Shown here: piece by piece, positions 56,405-62,970 of the stretch
Layout of the letters: every line of letters starts with the position of its first letter
Numbering within the stretch: the first letter of the stretch is position 1
Assembly (NCBI GenBank): GCA_014860575.1
Contig: JACZJK010000043.1
Coordinates: 62,001 to 126,000, forward strand
From: Bacteroidales bacterium
GTDB taxonomy: Bacteria; Bacteroidota; Bacteroidia; Bacteroidales; JAAYJT01
Direction of reading: 5' to 3'
Length of the DNA stretch: 64,000 nucleotides
Translations under genes and position numbers: made by a program
The notes under the pieces: model-generated
Seen by the model: only the letters and a program-made list of their open reading frames with translations
Databases searched by the model: none
What the model was told of the DNA's origin: nothing

Positions 56405-57796
56405 CTATTTATGAACCTTGCGGATAAATTCTTCAACTTCAGGAACTCCACCCTGGTAAACGAGGTAACCGTTATACGGTTCACGCTCAGTGATATCATC
56501 GTTGATGGGTGTGAGCATGATTTTCTTTACTTCGTCAAGATCGCTGGTTTGACCCAAAGCCCATCCAAGTTTGATGTAGGCTACCTCAGGGAGCATATTC
56601 TCAGCCGGCACAACGCCTTTGGCCATCATGTCGCGACCGGTTTCATACACAAACATGTGAACATAACCCCAAAGTGTTTGCACAGTCATATAAATGGCCA
56701 CGCCCTTTTTTGTTGCCCTTTCAATGGCAGGGTACAAAGGCTTGTTAACGTGACCCAACCCGGTTCCGGCAATAATAATTCCTTTATAACCCCTGTCCAC
56801 CAGCCCGTCAATCACATCGGGTTGCATATTGGGATAATAATAAACAATGGTCACCTTCTCCTCGAAATAGGGCAATATTTCAACTTTACGATCCTTGCGC
56901 CTGAGATTGTAATTTTCTTTCTGGGGTTTTACACCCTGGCGTGTAACTGTGGCCAGCGGTATATCGCCCAGCGTCCTGAAAGTGGAGCGGTATGATGAAT
57001 GCATTTTCCTGACCCGTGTGCCACGATGCAAGAATCCATACTCATCACTTGTGGGTCCGAACATGCAAACCATAACTTCAGCAATATCGCCATGACCAGC
57101 GGCGGTTGTAGCATGCATGAGGTTAAGGGCGGCATCAGAGCTGGGGCGGTCAGATGAGCGTTGCGAACCCACCAGCACAATCGGCACGGGCGGATTTTTA
57201 ATCATAAAAGTGAGCGCTGCTGCCGTATGGTGGAGTGTATCGGTTCCGTGCCCGATTACGATCCCATCAACACCGGTTTCAATTTCTTTCCCGATGGCGA
57301 TGGCAAGTTTTTTATACTGATCCGGTCCCATATTTTCGCTAAAAACCGAAAAAATCTTTTCAGTGGTAAGGTTGCAGATAGAAGCCAATTCGGGTACCGC
57401 ACCATAAAGTTCGCCAGGAGAAAATGCCGGTATCACAGCGCCGGTACGATAATCGAGCCGTGAAGCGATGGTTCCGCCGGTGCCAAACAGCTTAACTTTT
57501 GGAAGGTTGGGCGTATAGGGAAATTCCTTTTCAGGGATTTTATAAACCGCTTTTTTGTAGCCTGTTTCCGTCATTTCAATGACGTTATCTACATTGATAC
57601 CAATATTATAGCCTGTTGGAATTTTTAGCACAATATGCCTGGAATCATCATTTTCAGCGCGCGGAAGGATAGTTCCTTTGAAAGCGCCACGGGTAGTATT
57701 TATTTGCACTTGCCCCCATACGCGGGCATGATACTTCTTCAATGTTTCGAGTGCGGCGCCTTTATAGCCCTGGAAAAAATCTTCGCTCATCGCCAA
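56405..57796 (-). CDS. gatD: Glutamyl-tRNA(Gln) amidotransferase subunit D (archaeal-type GatD)
   Basis: This 463-residue protein has an N-terminal Sm-like/GatD domain (about 20-80) preceding an L-asparaginase-type amidase. The catalytic tetrad is intact: Thr109 (GTGGTIAS), Thr185 and Asp186 (HGTDT) and Lys264 (GTRVRKMHSS). The N-terminal domain and the GatD-specific IVLVGSQRSSDRPSSDAALNL and GLGHVNK separate it from plain asparaginases. GatD supplies ammonia from glutamine for GatE. This enzyme is textbook-archaeal, yet all neighbours are Bacteroidota genes. gatE lies two genes upstream in the same operon. Either of the two initial Met codons could be the start. Confidence 0.93.
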   Translation of the reverse strand: MAMSEDFFQGYKGAALETLKKYHARVWGQVQINTTRGAFKGTILPRAENDDSRHIVLKIPTGYNIGINVDNVIEMTETGYKKAVYKIPEKEFPYTPNLPKVKLFGTGGTIASRLDYRTGAVIPAFSPGELYGAVPELASICNLTTEKIFSVFSENMGPDQYKKLAIAIGKEIETGVDGIVIGHGTDTLHHTAAALTFMIKNPPVPIVLVGSQRSSDRPSSDAALNLMHATTAAGHGDIAEVMVCMFGPTSDEYGFLHRGTRVRKMHSSYRSTFRTLGDIPLATVTRQGVKPQKENYNLRRKDRKVEILPYFEEKVTIVYYYPNMQPDVIDGLVDRGYKGIIIAGTGLGHVNKPLYPAIERATKKGVAIYMTVQTLWGYVHMFVYETGRDMMAKGVVPAENMLPEVAYIKLGWALGQTSDLDEVKKIMLTPINDDITEREPYNGYLVYQGGVPEVEEFIRKVHK

Positions 57797-57916
57797 TGCA
57801 TGGTGTTAAAAAGTGGTTAATGTAGAATCTGTTTAGTATGTATGTTCAGCGTGAATAATAGGTTCGAGGCTTAAAAACTACAAAGGAGAAATCAAATTCA
57901 AGAAAGCCGTCATTCC

Positions 57917-59164
57917 TTAATTACTTACTACCAGTTTAATGGTTGCAGTGGCTGTTTCAGTCTTCATCTGGCAGAAATAAATGCCTGCCGGTAATGTTAT
58001 GGCATTAAATGTAACCCAGTGTGATCCGGCTTCCTGCCAACCTTCGTGCAATACCGTTATCATCCTGTTTGAACCATCAAACACTTTAATGTTGACCCAT
58101 TCCGCTTCGGGAAGGGAATATTTAATCGTGGTTTTGCCCGTAAAAGGGTTCGGAAAATTAGGATGCAGTGAAGCCAGTTTTTTTAACTCCGGGCCAACAA
58201 TACCAGTGTTTAAACCGGGCCCGTTTTCATAAATCAGCATGCCCAATGAAATTTTAACAACTTCGGCAGCAAAGTCTTTGTTGGTTGACGACACCAAATC
58301 ATTTACTGTATGATAAAAAGGTGTAAACTCATCCTCAATAAAAAATATGGTGTTAAAACCGTTGGAGTAAAACGGCCAGCTATCCGACTGTTGCATATAC
58401 TGCGTGGTTTCAAAGGTGTTGAGTATCGTGAAATTTGTAGCAATGTATTGAGCAAGATTGGTGACCCACAGAGAGTTGGGATATTTAACCAAACGAATGG
58501 TCCACTGGTCCTGGGGCAAGGTGCAATAACTTATCATGTCGTTGTTGAGCATCATCTTGATGTTCATGTTTTGAGCGGCGGCATTGTCGGCAAAGTGCCA
58601 GCCACCATGCAAGCCGAGTTCTTCAGCAGCAAATGTTACAAACTTGATTGTTGATTCCGGTTGATAGCCATATTGGTTCATAATGCGTGCAACTTCAAGC
58701 GCAGCGGCAACTCCGCTTGCATTGTCATCGGCGCCGGGCGCTATTAAAAACGGATTGCTTGATGAAGGAACAATTGCATCATGGTGGCCGCCAATAATGT
58801 AAACCTCGTCAGGACGGGCATAACCAGGCAAGGTGCTCACTACATTATACTGCCAGGTTTGGTAGTAAACACCATTATAGGTTCTGTTCAGCGGGAAAGA
58901 ATCCAGTTGACTGTCGGGATAGCCTAGCTGAATAAATTTATCCCTGATCCAAACTGAAACTTCACGCCGGTTTTCAGCAAGGCAGAAGCGGGTTCCCATA
59001 TCTTCAAGCGACTGCATATAGGATTGAATACTATCGGCATTTACCATGTCAGTATACTCAATAATGATTGAATCAAGACTAGTGTTCCATGGTGGCGTGA
59101 TCTGTGCTTTTGCCTGAAAACCAAAGGCTGGAATCAGGAACAGGAGGATCAGTAGGTTTTTCAT
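57917..59164 (-). CDS. Secreted M28 family zinc peptidase with T9SS sorting domain
   Basis: This 415-residue protein has a signal peptide (about 1-21, cut after AKAQ). The M28 domain's dinuclear zinc ligands are visible: HHD in IIGGHHDAIV, Asp in GADDNASGV, the catalytic and ligand Glu pair in AAEELGLHGG, and a later His (PFYHTVND). The last 80 residues form a T9SS sorting domain (NFPNPFTGKTTIKYSL ... AGIYFCQM), so it is exported across the outer membrane. It is an aminopeptidase-type enzyme. Its place between gatE (18 nt upstream) and gatD is odd, since its compartment and function differ from theirs. Confidence 0.92.
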   Translation of the reverse strand: MKNLLILLFLIPAFGFQAKAQITPPWNTSLDSIIIEYTDMVNADSIQSYMQSLEDMGTRFCLAENRREVSVWIRDKFIQLGYPDSQLDSFPLNRTYNGVYYQTWQYNVVSTLPGYARPDEVYIIGGHHDAIVPSSSNPFLIAPGADDNASGVAAALEVARIMNQYGYQPESTIKFVTFAAEELGLHGGWHFADNAAAQNMNIKMMLNNDMISYCTLPQDQWTIRLVKYPNSLWVTNLAQYIATNFTILNTFETTQYMQQSDSWPFYSNGFNTIFFIEDEFTPFYHTVNDLVSSTNKDFAAEVVKISLGMLIYENGPGLNTGIVGPELKKLASLHPNFPNPFTGKTTIKYSLPEAEWVNIKVFDGSNRMITVLHEGWQEAGSHWVTFNAITLPAGIYFCQMKTETATATIKLVVSN

Positions 59165-59182
59165 TGTATAAGGATGTTTATG

Positions 59183-61153
59183 TTAGTCAATGTGTAAATG
59201 CTTTGATAATTCCGTGAGGGAAATGTTTCCGCTTGCAACGGGTCTCAGTTGCCCCATCATCCAGTTATGCATATCTGCAAGACCGGATGCTGCGTGCAAT
59301 TGTTTGAACTTGTTTCTCAGAAACGGAATACGGTCGATGATGTTGTTTTTATCAGTTGGTTTGTAATGTATTGTGGTCAGAACCGATTCAAATTCCATTT
59401 TGGGATATTGGTAGATCACAGGCATCATCTTTTTTGCCAGATCCAGTGCTATGCCGTTTTCTTTCAAATACCTGAACAGCCCAAAGATTATCTTATAGTT
59501 GAATGACGAAGAAGGTTTATAGTGGCCTTCAACAAATTTTAAGGTATGCCCGAAAAAGGTTCCGCAAAAAGCAGGTGGTACATTAAGTTCATTGATTATT
59601 CTTTCAATCAGCGGGAAAAGATCTTTCTTGAAAATATAAGTGTAGGTGTCTTCAGGCACATTCCATGCTTTGAGCTTGTGGTATCTGTCAATTACATCTT
59701 CAGGCAAGCGTTTTTTGAGTTCATCAATATAGCTGTCCTTCAAAGGTATTGGCGGGGAATCAGTATCCGGGTACATGCGGTCGGCGCCCGGAAGCACGCG
59801 TTCAAAAATAGTGGTGCCGTCCTCAAATGATTTTCGGGTTTCGTTTGGCACACCCTGAAAAGCCATCATACAACGCTCTTCGATGGTTTCAAGCGCCGTT
59901 GGTATATCATCAGCAGGGCCCCAGATAATGAGTTGAGCATCATCATCGGTTGCGTTCAAGGTTTTCCGTATTATTTCAAATGCTTCCGGTTCAATAACCG
60001 TCCAAAGCATTTCGGAATGAACAAGATTGGGATGTTCAATGCAGGCAATCACTTTAAGGCGTTCGCTTAGTTCGTCGGCGAAAATTTTACCGGGTTGCGT
60101 GAAATGCGATAGCATGCCTTTGAAACCCGGCAGGTTGATGGCATAAACAGGGGTTTTGCAACGCTGCGCACTGCCAAGTGGTTCGTAATTAAACTCAACA
60201 CTTTTCCGGCTGAGTTTCTCAGCCTTCATTTTCCATTGCTTCCAATCGGGAAACTTTTCCAACAGCAGTGACCTGATATTTAACAGTGCATATTGCCTGA
60301 ACGCCTCGTTATGTGTGAGTTCCGGAATCCATTTGGTATGCGCAACGCCTTTAATCTCGACCCTTGTTCCGCCACGGCAACTTACGTTTACATCTTGCCG
60401 GCCGGCACCCATTCCTGTACGAACCTTGCCAGTACTGCGGTTCAGGAAGCGGATGTAATTGCAGGCTTCCATCACCTCGTCGGGGTTAACCATATCAGGA
60501 TATGTGACAGTTTCGATCAAAGGCATTCCAAGGCGGTCGGTTCGGAAAACACGCACATGGCCGATGTCAGAAACCTCGCGGCAGCTATCTTCCTCAAGGC
60601 TGAGTTGGATGAGCCGCACTTTTTTATTCTTGAGGGGAATTTCACCTTCTACGCCAATAATAGCTGTACGCTGAAAACCGGTAGGGATGCTGCCATCAAG
60701 ATACTGTTTGCGCGTAATGTGAACCTCGCCAACGATGTTGAGCCGGCAAAGCAATGAAATTTCAATTGCTTGTTCCAGCGCTTCCTGGTTTACAAGAAAA
60801 GGTGGAGTATCGTCAATTTCATAGGTGCATGCCGTGGGGCTTTTGAGCCGGTAAATAATTGTTTTTCTCGTTTTGAACTCCATGAGCGCCGTGCCATCGT
60901 ATTCGCCAAGTTCGCTGAGTGTCGGCCTCATGTGCCTGATGATTTCGGCATCAAAATCGTCGGGTGCCTGGAAAATACCGGCCGGACAACGGCAAAACAA
61001 TTTCTTGCCGGTTTTCAGTTGCTGATGCACTTCCAGTCCTGACATGAAGCCAATCCGGTCGTAATCAGTCTGGGTGGCTTTTCGGCGTGTAACATAGCCA
61101 ATAGCTTGTTGAGTTTGCTTGTAGTTTGAGTTGGGATCGAAGGCTCCGGACAT
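59183..61153 (-). CDS. gatE: Glutamyl-tRNA(Gln) amidotransferase subunit E (archaeal-type GatE)
   Basis: This 656-residue protein is in the GatE size range and well above bacterial GatB (about 480). The cradle domain opens with GLEVHQQL (39-46) and KLFCRCP (Cys54, Cys56), with ITRKQYLDGSIPTGFQRT and EEDSCREV following. An AspRS-like GAD insertion (about 275-450), absent from GatB, is present, ending before PGADRMYPDTDSPPI (455-469). A helical YqeY-type tRNA-binding tail completes it. GatE phosphorylates and amidates Glu-tRNA(Gln) using ammonia from GatD. It heads the gatE-M28-gatD transcript. Confidence 0.94.
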   Translation of the reverse strand: MSGAFDPNSNYKQTQQAIGYVTRRKATQTDYDRIGFMSGLEVHQQLKTGKKLFCRCPAGIFQAPDDFDAEIIRHMRPTLSELGEYDGTALMEFKTRKTIIYRLKSPTACTYEIDDTPPFLVNQEALEQAIEISLLCRLNIVGEVHITRKQYLDGSIPTGFQRTAIIGVEGEIPLKNKKVRLIQLSLEEDSCREVSDIGHVRVFRTDRLGMPLIETVTYPDMVNPDEVMEACNYIRFLNRSTGKVRTGMGAGRQDVNVSCRGGTRVEIKGVAHTKWIPELTHNEAFRQYALLNIRSLLLEKFPDWKQWKMKAEKLSRKSVEFNYEPLGSAQRCKTPVYAINLPGFKGMLSHFTQPGKIFADELSERLKVIACIEHPNLVHSEMLWTVIEPEAFEIIRKTLNATDDDAQLIIWGPADDIPTALETIEERCMMAFQGVPNETRKSFEDGTTIFERVLPGADRMYPDTDSPPIPLKDSYIDELKKRLPEDVIDRYHKLKAWNVPEDTYTYIFKKDLFPLIERIINELNVPPAFCGTFFGHTLKFVEGHYKPSSSFNYKIIFGLFRYLKENGIALDLAKKMMPVIYQYPKMEFESVLTTIHYKPTDKNNIIDRIPFLRNKFKQLHAASGLADMHNWMMGQLRPVASGNISLTELSKHLHID

Positions 61154-61443: not shown

Positions 61444-62970
61444 ATGAAACAACTCTTGTTATCCAGCGCAATATTGGTTTCCTTTCTTCTTATGCTTGCT
61501 TCCAACCCGGCAGCAATGCAGGAAAAGCAGCAGCCCACACGTGTGAAGATCATACAGGCGGATGAACTTCGGTTTGAGAGGCGGTTTGGCAAGGATATCA
61601 GGCGTTTGCTTGGCAATGTGATCCTCGAGCATGACGAAGTACTCATGTATTGTGATAGCGCTTACATGCAGGAAGCCAGCAACAGCTTTGAAGCGTTCAG
61701 CAATGTGAAGATCAACTCGGGTGATACATTGTTTTTGTATGGAAAATATCTCAGATACAATGGAAACACCCGCCTGGCCGAGGTTTTCTATGATGTAAAA
61801 CTTGTGGATGACAACACGGTTCTCACCACTGAACAACTTAACTATAACCGCAACACCGGTATAGCCTACTACGAACGCGAAGGAAAAATTACAGATGATG
61901 AAAATGATCTCACCAGCAGGAGCGGTTATTATATGACTGAAGAAAAGCGTGCGCATTTCCGTAAGAATGTTGTACTCGTAAACCCGGAATACGTAATGCG
62001 ATCCGACACATTGGTGTATCACACCGAAACTCAGGTTTCAAGCTTTTTCGGGCCTACGACCATTGATGCTGACGATTCCTTTATTTATTGCGAAAATGGA
62101 TGGTATGATACAAAAAACGACAAAGCCCAGTTTAACAAACACGCTTACATTATCAGTGGCGAACACAATATCCGGGGCGATAGTCTGTATTACAATCGCG
62201 CCGATGAATCGGCCAAGGCATTTGAAAATGTGGTTATTGTTGATACGGTTCAGAATGTAATACTTAAAGGCAATTATTCAGAATACTATAAGCACCTGGG
62301 TTATACTTACATCACCGATATTCCGGTAGCAATCTTTATTGAAAACGGCGATTCATTGTATATGCATGCCGATACTATCCGGACCACTTTTAACCAGGAT
62401 CAGGATATCGAGCGGGTGATGGCGTATTATAAGGTTAAATTTTTCAGGGACGACTTACAGGGATCGTGCGATTCATTGGTTTATAAAATGAGTGATTCAC
62501 TGATTGTGATGTACCGCGATCCGGTGCTCTGGACCGGCGAAAGTCAGCTAAGCGCTGATTCAATTCATGTAAATACCAATGGAGAAGCGATCGAAACGCT
62601 TGAGCTTTATAATTCTGCTTTTTTAATCAACAACGACGACAGCCTGCAATTTAATCAGGTAAAAGGACGCAATATGACCGGTTATTTCGTTGATGGCAGT
62701 CTTGATAATATTGTTGTTGTTGGCAATGCTGAAACTCTTTATTACGTAAAGGAAGAAGACGGTTACCTGATTGGGATCAACAAGGCTGTAGCCAGTCGGA
62801 TGCGGATCAAACTTGAAGACAGTAAGATTAGCCGGATCTATTATTTTGAAAAACCCGATGGGACAACTTTTCCTGATAAGGATCTTCCGGCTTCGGAGCG
62901 CCAGTTACCGGATTTCAACTGGAGGGACGATAAAAGGCCCAAAGTGTGGACTGATATTTTTAACCGCTAG
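61444..62970 (+). CDS. OstA/LptA-like organic solvent tolerance domain protein
   Basis: The product is 508 residues from ATG 61444 (a TTG three codons upstream is rejected). A signal peptide spans about 1-27. The mature protein is built from repeating beta-strand pairs of the LptA/OstA jellyroll type: ADELRF, LLGNVILEHDEVLMYCDSAYM, FSNVKINSGDTLFLYGKYLRY, and a second series in the middle. It is much longer than E. coli LptA (185), as for OstA-like proteins in Bacteroidota. Probable role: LPS transport bridge or outer membrane assembly in the periplasm. Its stop lies 2 nt from the convergent MlaD-like stop. Confidence 0.88.
   Translation: MKQLLLSSAILVSFLLMLASNPAAMQEKQQPTRVKIIQADELRFERRFGKDIRRLLGNVILEHDEVLMYCDSAYMQEASNSFEAFSNVKINSGDTLFLYGKYLRYNGNTRLAEVFYDVKLVDDNTVLTTEQLNYNRNTGIAYYEREGKITDDENDLTSRSGYYMTEEKRAHFRKNVVLVNPEYVMRSDTLVYHTETQVSSFFGPTTIDADDSFIYCENGWYDTKNDKAQFNKHAYIISGEHNIRGDSLYYNRADESAKAFENVVIVDTVQNVILKGNYSEYYKHLGYTYITDIPVAIFIENGDSLYMHADTIRTTFNQDQDIERVMAYYKVKFFRDDLQGSCDSLVYKMSDSLIVMYRDPVLWTGESQLSADSIHVNTNGEAIETLELYNSAFLINNDDSLQFNQVKGRNMTGYFVDGSLDNIVVVGNAETLYYVKEEDGYLIGINKAVASRMRIKLEDSKISRIYYFEKPDGTTFPDKDLPASERQLPDFNWRDDKRPKVWTDIFNR

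Follow-up and report, generated by a model that had tools for sequence, protein, structure and literature searches.

A GatDE-type amidotransferase in a GlnRS-bearing Bacteroidales genome and its possible link to asparagine synthesis on tRNA

Introduction

GatDE is a two-subunit, tRNA-dependent amidotransferase that a 2022 review, in its passages on the enzyme, gives as now found only in archaea (PMC9499178); the corresponding part of a 2021 review likewise assigns it to archaea only (PMC8007984). The former counts GatDE among the reasons for which archaea never acquired GlnRS and states that the archaeal enzyme reads the A1–U72 pair of tRNA(Gln), whose discriminator base is A73 in archaea and G73 in bacteria (PMC9499178). 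Here, we describe the genes gatD and gatE in a stretch of 64,000 nucleotides (the window; positions 62,001–126,000 of contig JACZJK010000043.1, assembly GCA_014860575.1) from a Bacteroidales bacterium. The two genes form a genuine two-subunit GatDE in a Bacteroidota genome and, judging from the active sites and the predicted fold, would encode a working amidotransferase that depends on glutamine and belongs to an old clade of bacterial GatDE.

According to parts of one report, the bacterial amidotransferase GatCAB makes asparagine on tRNA in Bdellovibrio, and so it does in bacteria that combine GatCAB with AsnRS and GlnRS and lack an asparagine synthetase (PMC4206432). This is the precedent for the role that we propose for GatDE; the likeness lies in an amidotransferase that is kept, as in Bdellovibrio, Deinococcus and Thermus, despite GlnRS and AsnRS and without asparagine synthetases (PMC4206432). 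The subunits are different: the GatD of the window is an asparaginase-type glutaminase and its genome has no match to GatA. We found no report of a bacterial GatDE in searches of an open-licence library, a scope outside which most subscription journals lie. Curated models already carry the names GatD and GatE for such proteins, which need not be new as database entries. What appears to be new is the recognition that these proteins make up a bacterial GatDE clade in hosts with GlnRS, along with the rebuilding of its tRNA reader and the link to asparagine.

Architecture and active sites of GatD and GatE

The gatE gene (59183–61153, minus strand) is an open reading frame of 656 residues for the subunit that would activate and amidate the tRNA-bound acid, and gatD (56405–57790, minus strand) encodes the glutaminase/asparaginase-type subunit. 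Both proteins are complete, and their catalytic residues are intact. The open-reading-frame listing starts gatD at TTG 57796, but ATG 57790 is the likelier start and gives 461 residues, the length of most relatives; the GatD residue numbers used here count from TTG 57796.

GatE scores 391.9 bits against TIGR00134 (cut-off 319.55) and 449.3 bits against NF003107, about 7 bits under the cut-off of 456 for that model. GatD is well above both of its models (TIGR02153, 497.7 bits with a cut-off of 324; NF003217, 497.2 bits with a cut-off of 310). Sequence searches of the PDB place the GatDE structures 1zq1 and 2d6f far above GatB and asparaginases, with E values of 1.1e-83 (2d6f_C) and 7.5e-77 (1zq1_C) for GatE; window GatD gives 393 bits to GatD versus 138 bits to the best asparaginase. 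GatD shares the amidase fold and tetrad of type I L-asparaginases and differs from them in its additional Sm-like GatD_N domain (PF18195, 45.5 bits; 57581–57712, minus strand). On these profile and PDB matches, the identification of GatE as a GatB and of GatD as a plain asparaginase were both rejected.

The GatD tetrad, Thr109 (57470–57472), Thr185-Asp186 (57239–57244) and Lys264 (57005–57007; all minus strand), is invariant in 88/88 bacterial GatD sequences (the window and 87 relatives) and in both archaeal rows. Twelve cradle positions of GatE were checked and all are invariant in 105/105 bacterial GatE sequences. Nine of them (Glu41, His43, Glu187, Glu188, Arg252, Asp254, Asn256, Glu266 and Lys268) are the same in the three archaeal GatE and six GatB rows, and Cys54, Cys56 and Arg192 are not conserved in all archaeal and GatB rows.

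The predicted model of GatE (pLDDT, predicted local distance difference test, 83.7) superimposes on 2d6f_D with a Z score of 30.4 (483 residues aligned, r.m.s.d. 4.0) and on 1zq1_C with a Z score of 27.4. In the model, a catalytic cradle (residues 29–303, 60245–61069, and residues 436–480, 59714–59848; both minus strand) is interrupted by an insertion (residues 304–435; 59849–60244, minus strand) that matches AspRS chains with Z scores of 8–10. GatE thus appears to fold like archaeal GatE, with the AspRS-like insertion retained. The cradle is preceded by an N-terminal extension with a GYVxR-type motif (residues 1–28; 61070–61153, minus strand), which is modeled with confidence, and followed by helical and tail domains (residues 481–656; 59186–59713, minus strand) that most likely correspond to the tRNA-binding module of GatB and GatE and are strongly remodeled. 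The pair therefore resembles the archaeal GatDE of Methanothermobacter (2d6f) and Pyrococcus (1zq1) in its two subunits, GatD_N, AspRS-like insertion, catalytic residues and fold, but is distant from them in sequence (about 30% identity for GatE and 45–47% for GatD). A sequence-only reading of the window had recognized gatE and gatD in a Bacteroidota chromosome, with the tetrad and Sm-like domain of GatD and the AspRS-like insertion of GatE, and the profile, PDB, alignment and fold comparisons bear out each of these points.

A probable rebuilt tRNA-binding module in GatE

Sequence conservation falls sharply along GatE. In comparison with two full archaeal GatE sequences, identity is 40–41% in the cradle (40–47% in its second part), 23–24% in the insertion, 15–16% in the helical domain and 10–11% in the tail, so that the last two domains and the N-terminal extension set window GatE apart from the archaeal proteins. 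The same gradient separates it from a member of a second bacterial clade, L117 (cradle 66%, second part 56%, insertion 33%, helical domain 17%, tail 16%), and is milder within its own clade, represented by Oceanirhabdus (73, 71, 46, 40 and 36%, respectively). The structure alignment comprised 52 rows. Among the inspected rows, members of the window's clade share an N-terminal extension about 28 residues long; this part is shorter in the other bacterial clade and does not align to archaeal GatE.

The PF02637 profile finds no match in window GatE. When the C-terminal 189 residues were folded alone (pLDDT 89.7), their best structural matches were GatB, GatE, the tRNA-binding domains of human and yeast GlnRS, and YqeY, at marginal Z scores of 6–9, and designed helical repeats appear in the same list at about 6. 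A Foldseek search with the C-terminal part alone gave no match at E values up to 0.001. The C-terminal end has the consensus MGxLRxxAxGNIxL. On the predicted fold, this part is most likely the same GatB/GatE tRNA-binding module in a strongly rebuilt form. Since the part that binds tRNA is rebuilt and the cradle is conserved, we infer that the tRNA target of GatE in the window's clade has changed.

Bacterial distribution and relation to archaeal GatDE

Scanning species genomes yielded 95 confirmed relatives of window GatE, of which 80, at 57–76% identity and mostly from Bacteroidales metagenome-assembled genomes (MAGs), were kept as related loci. Other relatives are labeled Zixiibacteriota, Aminicenantes, Edwardsbacteria, Calditrichota and Planctomycetota (some MAG labels may reflect mis-binning), and gatDE is also borne by one complete chromosome, that of Oceanirhabdus sp. 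W0125-5 (Clostridiaceae). A GatE above the TIGR00134 cut-off is encoded by 107/247 sampled genomes of the window's order, including both of the same genus (n = 2), and by 30/395 sampled genomes of the phylum, both samples having been drawn automatically. In 64/80 loci, gatE is followed by a same-strand gatD at a distance of up to about 1.3 kb; several of the other 16 stop at a contig edge, and one (L006) has 10 kb without gatD.

Two further lineages occur within the phylum. A second GatE clade (L117–L142 and L144), outside the window's class, is more archaeal-like, and L143 is a deep single branch. These proteins score 426–497 bits (L117–L144) against the archaeal model versus 392 for the window; gatE adjoins gatD in nearly all of their loci and the catalytic residues are kept, but their GatE has a shorter N-terminal part and is 35–44% identical to that of the window over the alignment. 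Between the window and L117, GatD is 68.7% and GatE 43.7% identical. Most genomes with these GatDE show further, weaker matches that are candidate GatB proteins. Besides the window genome, the 30 carriers of the order used in the comparison of asparagine synthetases below (30/30) have a GatE that is 60–77% identical to that of the window and 43–55% to L117, and all therefore belong to the window's clade; the one stop counted in the G468 sequence is its natural end. One genome from outside the window's class (G206, locus L145) also carries this clade, whereas the second clade is found in other carriers from its family; the sequences suggest a transfer of gatDE between bacteria. Some GatE-negative genomes of the order have matches of GatB length and pattern, and others apparently have both (G458, G573, G669, G520, G622 and G596); GatDE and GatCAB may have been swapped within the order.

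Bacterial GatE sequences (the window, L117 and L143) are 30–35% identical to archaeal GatE, whereas those of Methanothermobacter and Pyrococcus are 53% identical to each other. The GatE tree, a quick tree in which the program flags long branches, included 49 bacterial rows, after removal of near-copies at 72% identity, and three archaeal sequences, one of them partial. With GatB rows included, the three euryarchaeal GatE sequences form one group (support 99) apart from 48 bacterial rows (90); L143 and the archaeal GatE are mutually unsettled. The branch to the window's clade has a length of 1.55 and a support of 100. The partial sequence is the first open frame of a gatE on the Natrinema thermotolerans plasmid CP031304.1 (L147), which entered the tree and identities in that form; the gene is unannotated and split over frames, and is probably broken or bears a sequencing error. 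A search of plasmids for more archaeal GatE had supplied this copy; the corresponding search for GatD gave no match at an E value of 1e-80.

As bacterial GatE is far from, and not nested among, the three archaeal sequences, a recent archaeal transfer into this lineage is unlikely and was rejected. The tree is compatible with both an ancient transfer and deep shared ancestry. The sequence-only reading had taken the pair for a datable transfer between domains, which fits neither these distances nor the breadth of the family across the order, the phylum and other phyla.

tRNA-charging machinery of the host

The window genome is a 4.4-Mb draft assembly in 66 contigs (95% complete, 1.2% contaminated). 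It encodes a full-length GlnRS (567 residues, 776 bits to TIGR00440) together with GluRS, AsnRS, AspRS and LysRS, and it has no match to PF02637 (GatB tail) or PF01425 (amidase, GatA), searches that did find matches in 12/14 control genomes. Its GluRS and those of 20 other chosen GatE carriers (21/21) have an arginine at the position of Thermus Arg358, which we take to be the discriminating residue. GlnRS exceeds the cut-off in 27/30 GatE-bearing genomes of the phylum sample and in 27/31 chosen GatE-negative genomes, and at least two class Ic synthetases are present in 42/50 genomes reached through 50 of the 80 related loci. With GlnRS similarly frequent in carriers and non-carriers, and full length in the window genome, replacement of GlnRS by GatDE was rejected. 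Because the host has both GlnRS and a discriminating-looking GluRS, GatDE is not the main source of Gln-tRNA(Gln). Transamidation had been suggested to operate instead of, or in addition to, GlnRS; the former fails on these findings and the latter may still apply.

Two tRNA(Gln) genes were found in the window genome (anticodons UUG and CUG) in a scan with 336 candidates, 150 of which were scored and 40 listed. The two differ in make-up, but both have U1–A72 and A73; a dedicated archaeal-type tRNA(Gln), with A1–U72, was rejected on this ground, and here too the host is unlike those of archaeal GatDE. The tRNA(Asn) has U1–A72, as bacterial GatCAB requires. A73 is present in the tRNA(Gln) genes of L161 (1501–1574), L173 (1501–1572) and L006 (3193–3264); that of L006, tRNA-Gln(TTG), is on the strand opposite to gatE, about 1.1 kb downstream of that gene. 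In the window genome, glnS is followed on its own strand, after about 50 bases, by the tRNA-Gln(CTG) gene (G000:C32; L001, 1402–3105 and 3155–3228), and a tRNA-Gln(CTG) stands beside the synthetase gene in 6/31 class Ic synthetase loci of GatE-bearing genomes (mostly glnS by length). This arrangement gives no explanation of GatDE.

Scarcity of asparagine synthetases in GatE-bearing genomes

Asparagine synthetases were compared in 65 genomes, hand-picked from the order and phylum samples with a preference for high completeness: 32 carriers of the window's GatE clade (the window genome, 30 of the order and G206), ten carriers of other bacterial GatE and 23 GatE-negative genomes of the order. AsnA is encoded by 3/32, 0/10 and 17/23 of these, respectively, and classical AsnB by 0/32, 1/10 and 16/23. 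Classical AsnB is a class that we defined (17 genomes with a protein of 533–591 residues and a two-piece match of 384–480 bits); it leaves out one carrier, G615, with a two-piece AsnB-like protein of 502 residues and 280 bits. Thus, 29/32 carriers of the window's clade are without AsnA and classical AsnB. When every TIGR01536 protein above the cut-off is counted, AsnA or such a protein is present in 14/32, 6/10 and 19/23 genomes, and neither is present in 18/32, 4/10 and 4/23. AsnRS exceeds the cut-off in 64/65 genomes, the exception being the carrier G589.

A Fisher test of the 32 carriers against the GatE-negative genomes, which ignores kinship, gives p = 3e-8 when AsnA or classical AsnB is scored and p = 0.005 with the broad count. 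Kinship was taken into account with a Pagel-type dependent model on a FastTree tree of AspRS, which was obtained for 63 of the 65 genomes (G484 and G463 are missing). With 63 tips, the likelihood ratio (LR) is 18.1 for AsnA (p = 0.0012), 19.4 for AsnA or classical AsnB (p = 0.0007) and 8.5 for the broad count (p = 0.07). The 52 tips of the order alone give 17.3, 17.4 and 8.7 (p = 0.0017, 0.0016 and 0.07). None of 120 simulated, unlinked synthetase histories reaches 17.4, the largest value being 13.8; these 120 were kept from 348 draws for their similar number of positives, an earlier short run having kept 5 of 25. GatE-negative, synthetase-positive genomes occupy several separate spots in the tree (for example G452, G448, G473/G451 and a large clade around G288). 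The presence of GatE and the scarcity of asparagine synthetases are linked on this one fast tree, as an association and not as proof.

Proposed function and alternatives

The reading that we favor, with a probability of roughly 0.4, is that GatDE plays an accessory part as an amidotransferase, with Asp-tRNA(Asn) as its most likely substrate. Because the active sites and fold are intact, GatD would be expected to release ammonia from glutamine, and GatE to activate the side-chain acid of the tRNA-held amino acid and then turn it into the amide. With Asp-tRNA(Asn) as the target, GatDE would supply asparagine in bacteria without asparagine synthetases. In favor of this reading are the scarcity of these synthetases in carriers, the presence of GlnRS and AsnRS, the Arg358-type GluRS, the remodeled tRNA-binding part beside a conserved cradle, the U1–A72 pair of tRNA(Asn) and the GatCAB precedent. 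More tentatively, the whole of the window's clade may be an Asp-tRNA(Asn) amidotransferase with a rebuilt tRNA reader, forming an asparagine pathway in many Bacteroidales and several other phyla that needs neither GatCAB nor a synthetase. GatDE could then explain some genomes that have AsnRS and GlnRS but lack GatCAB and a synthetase; nine genera of this kind are listed in the part of the GatCAB report that deals with them (PMC4206432).

Several observations weigh against this assignment. The window genome itself has AsnA, so that asparagine supply by GatDE would be redundant there. The link to synthetases weakens when all TIGR01536 proteins are counted (14/32 versus 19/23; tree-aware p = 0.07) and, for the 52 tips of the order, when G615 is added (LR 15.5, p = 0.004); it was tested on a single fast AspRS tree in which many GatE-negative genomes form one clade, and four GatE-negative genomes are also without both synthetases. 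His31, which we take to mark the non-discriminating AspRS of Pseudomonas, is found in 0/63 AspRS sequences, which have Leu, Met, Lys or Phe instead, and 9/10 AspRS sequences from carriers of other bacterial GatE have the Leu of the discriminating Escherichia coli and Thermus enzymes. The determinants of non-discriminating AspRS differ between species. Among the genes flanking gatDE, a search for Asp-, Asn-, Glu-, Gln- and Lys-tRNA synthetases found one LysRS (L044) and no Asp, Asn, Glu or Gln synthetase. Finally, the known archaeal GatDE acts on Glu-tRNA(Gln), according to the review passages cited above (PMC9499178).

The main rival starts from this last point. GatDE may have kept the archaeal substrate and serve in salvage or proofreading beside GlnRS, rescuing the little tRNA(Gln) that is mischarged by GluRS or aiding the formation of Gln-tRNA when free glutamine is low. 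The archaeal activity (PMC9499178), the intact active sites and the presence of two differently built tRNA(Gln) isoacceptors, each bearing the archaeal discriminator A73 (PMC9499178), are in its favor. We nevertheless consider it somewhat less likely than action on Asp-tRNA(Asn), given the Arg358-type GluRS in 21/21 genomes, the U1–A72 pair of both tRNA(Gln) and the remodeled tRNA-binding module of GatE; it also leaves the link to asparagine synthetases unexplained. Less probable again is that GatDE amidates something else, either another tRNA-bound acid or a substrate outside translation, or acts mainly as a regulated glutaminase or asparaginase. The stronger conservation of GatD than of GatE between the bacterial clades and the freely varying tRNA-binding part of GatE would suit such a role, but the invariance of the cradle residues checked and the pairing of gatD with gatE in most loci suggest that the pair is kept for acid activation and amidation.

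The two remaining alternatives concern origin. That a recent archaeal transfer replaced GlnRS by an indirect route to Gln-tRNA(Gln) is what the archaeal family names and curated models would lead one to expect; with GlnRS as common in carriers as reported above, and bacterial GatE lying outside the archaeal sequences sampled, this is very improbable. An assembly chimera or a mis-binned archaeal contig, conceivable for a draft in 66 contigs, can be practically dismissed. The contig is 184,708 bases long with Bacteroidota-type neighbors (a type IX secretion system (T9SS) tail, OstA-like and MlaD), the GC content of the gatDE stretch (43–46%) is similar to that of the window's second half (42–46%), and gatE recurs in genomes of the same genus and gatDE in the complete Oceanirhabdus chromosome. 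The checks and refuting outcomes that the sequence-only reading had proposed, for glnS, gatCAB, the type of GluRS, a GatB or plain-asparaginase identity and a chimeric contig, thus leave the pair in place as a bacterial GatDE, in a host with GlnRS, an apparently discriminating GluRS and no GatA or GatB-tail match.

Gene neighborhood

The same reading had placed gatE and gatD on one strand. The strand is as described, but the two genes are separated by one for an M28 family peptidase with a T9SS sorting tail (57917–59164, minus strand; profile matches). A peptidase homologue occupies the same place between gatE and gatD in 2/80 related loci (L019 and L022), at 34–36% identity to that of the window. 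Beyond gatE and gatD, the commonest neighbor is a NUDIX-like gene (23/81 loci), followed by envelope-type genes, and in 11/81 loci a putative ValRS gene is encoded on the opposite strand some 7 kb upstream; the NUDIX-like and ValRS genes were named by eye.

Implications

That GatDE forms a broad clade in bacteria that also have GlnRS breaks the rule that the enzyme is confined to archaea, and bears on whether the last common ancestor already had GatDE. Two questions become testable as a result: whether the tRNA substrate of GatDE is open to change, and how many apparent bacterial asparagine auxotrophs make asparagine on tRNA.

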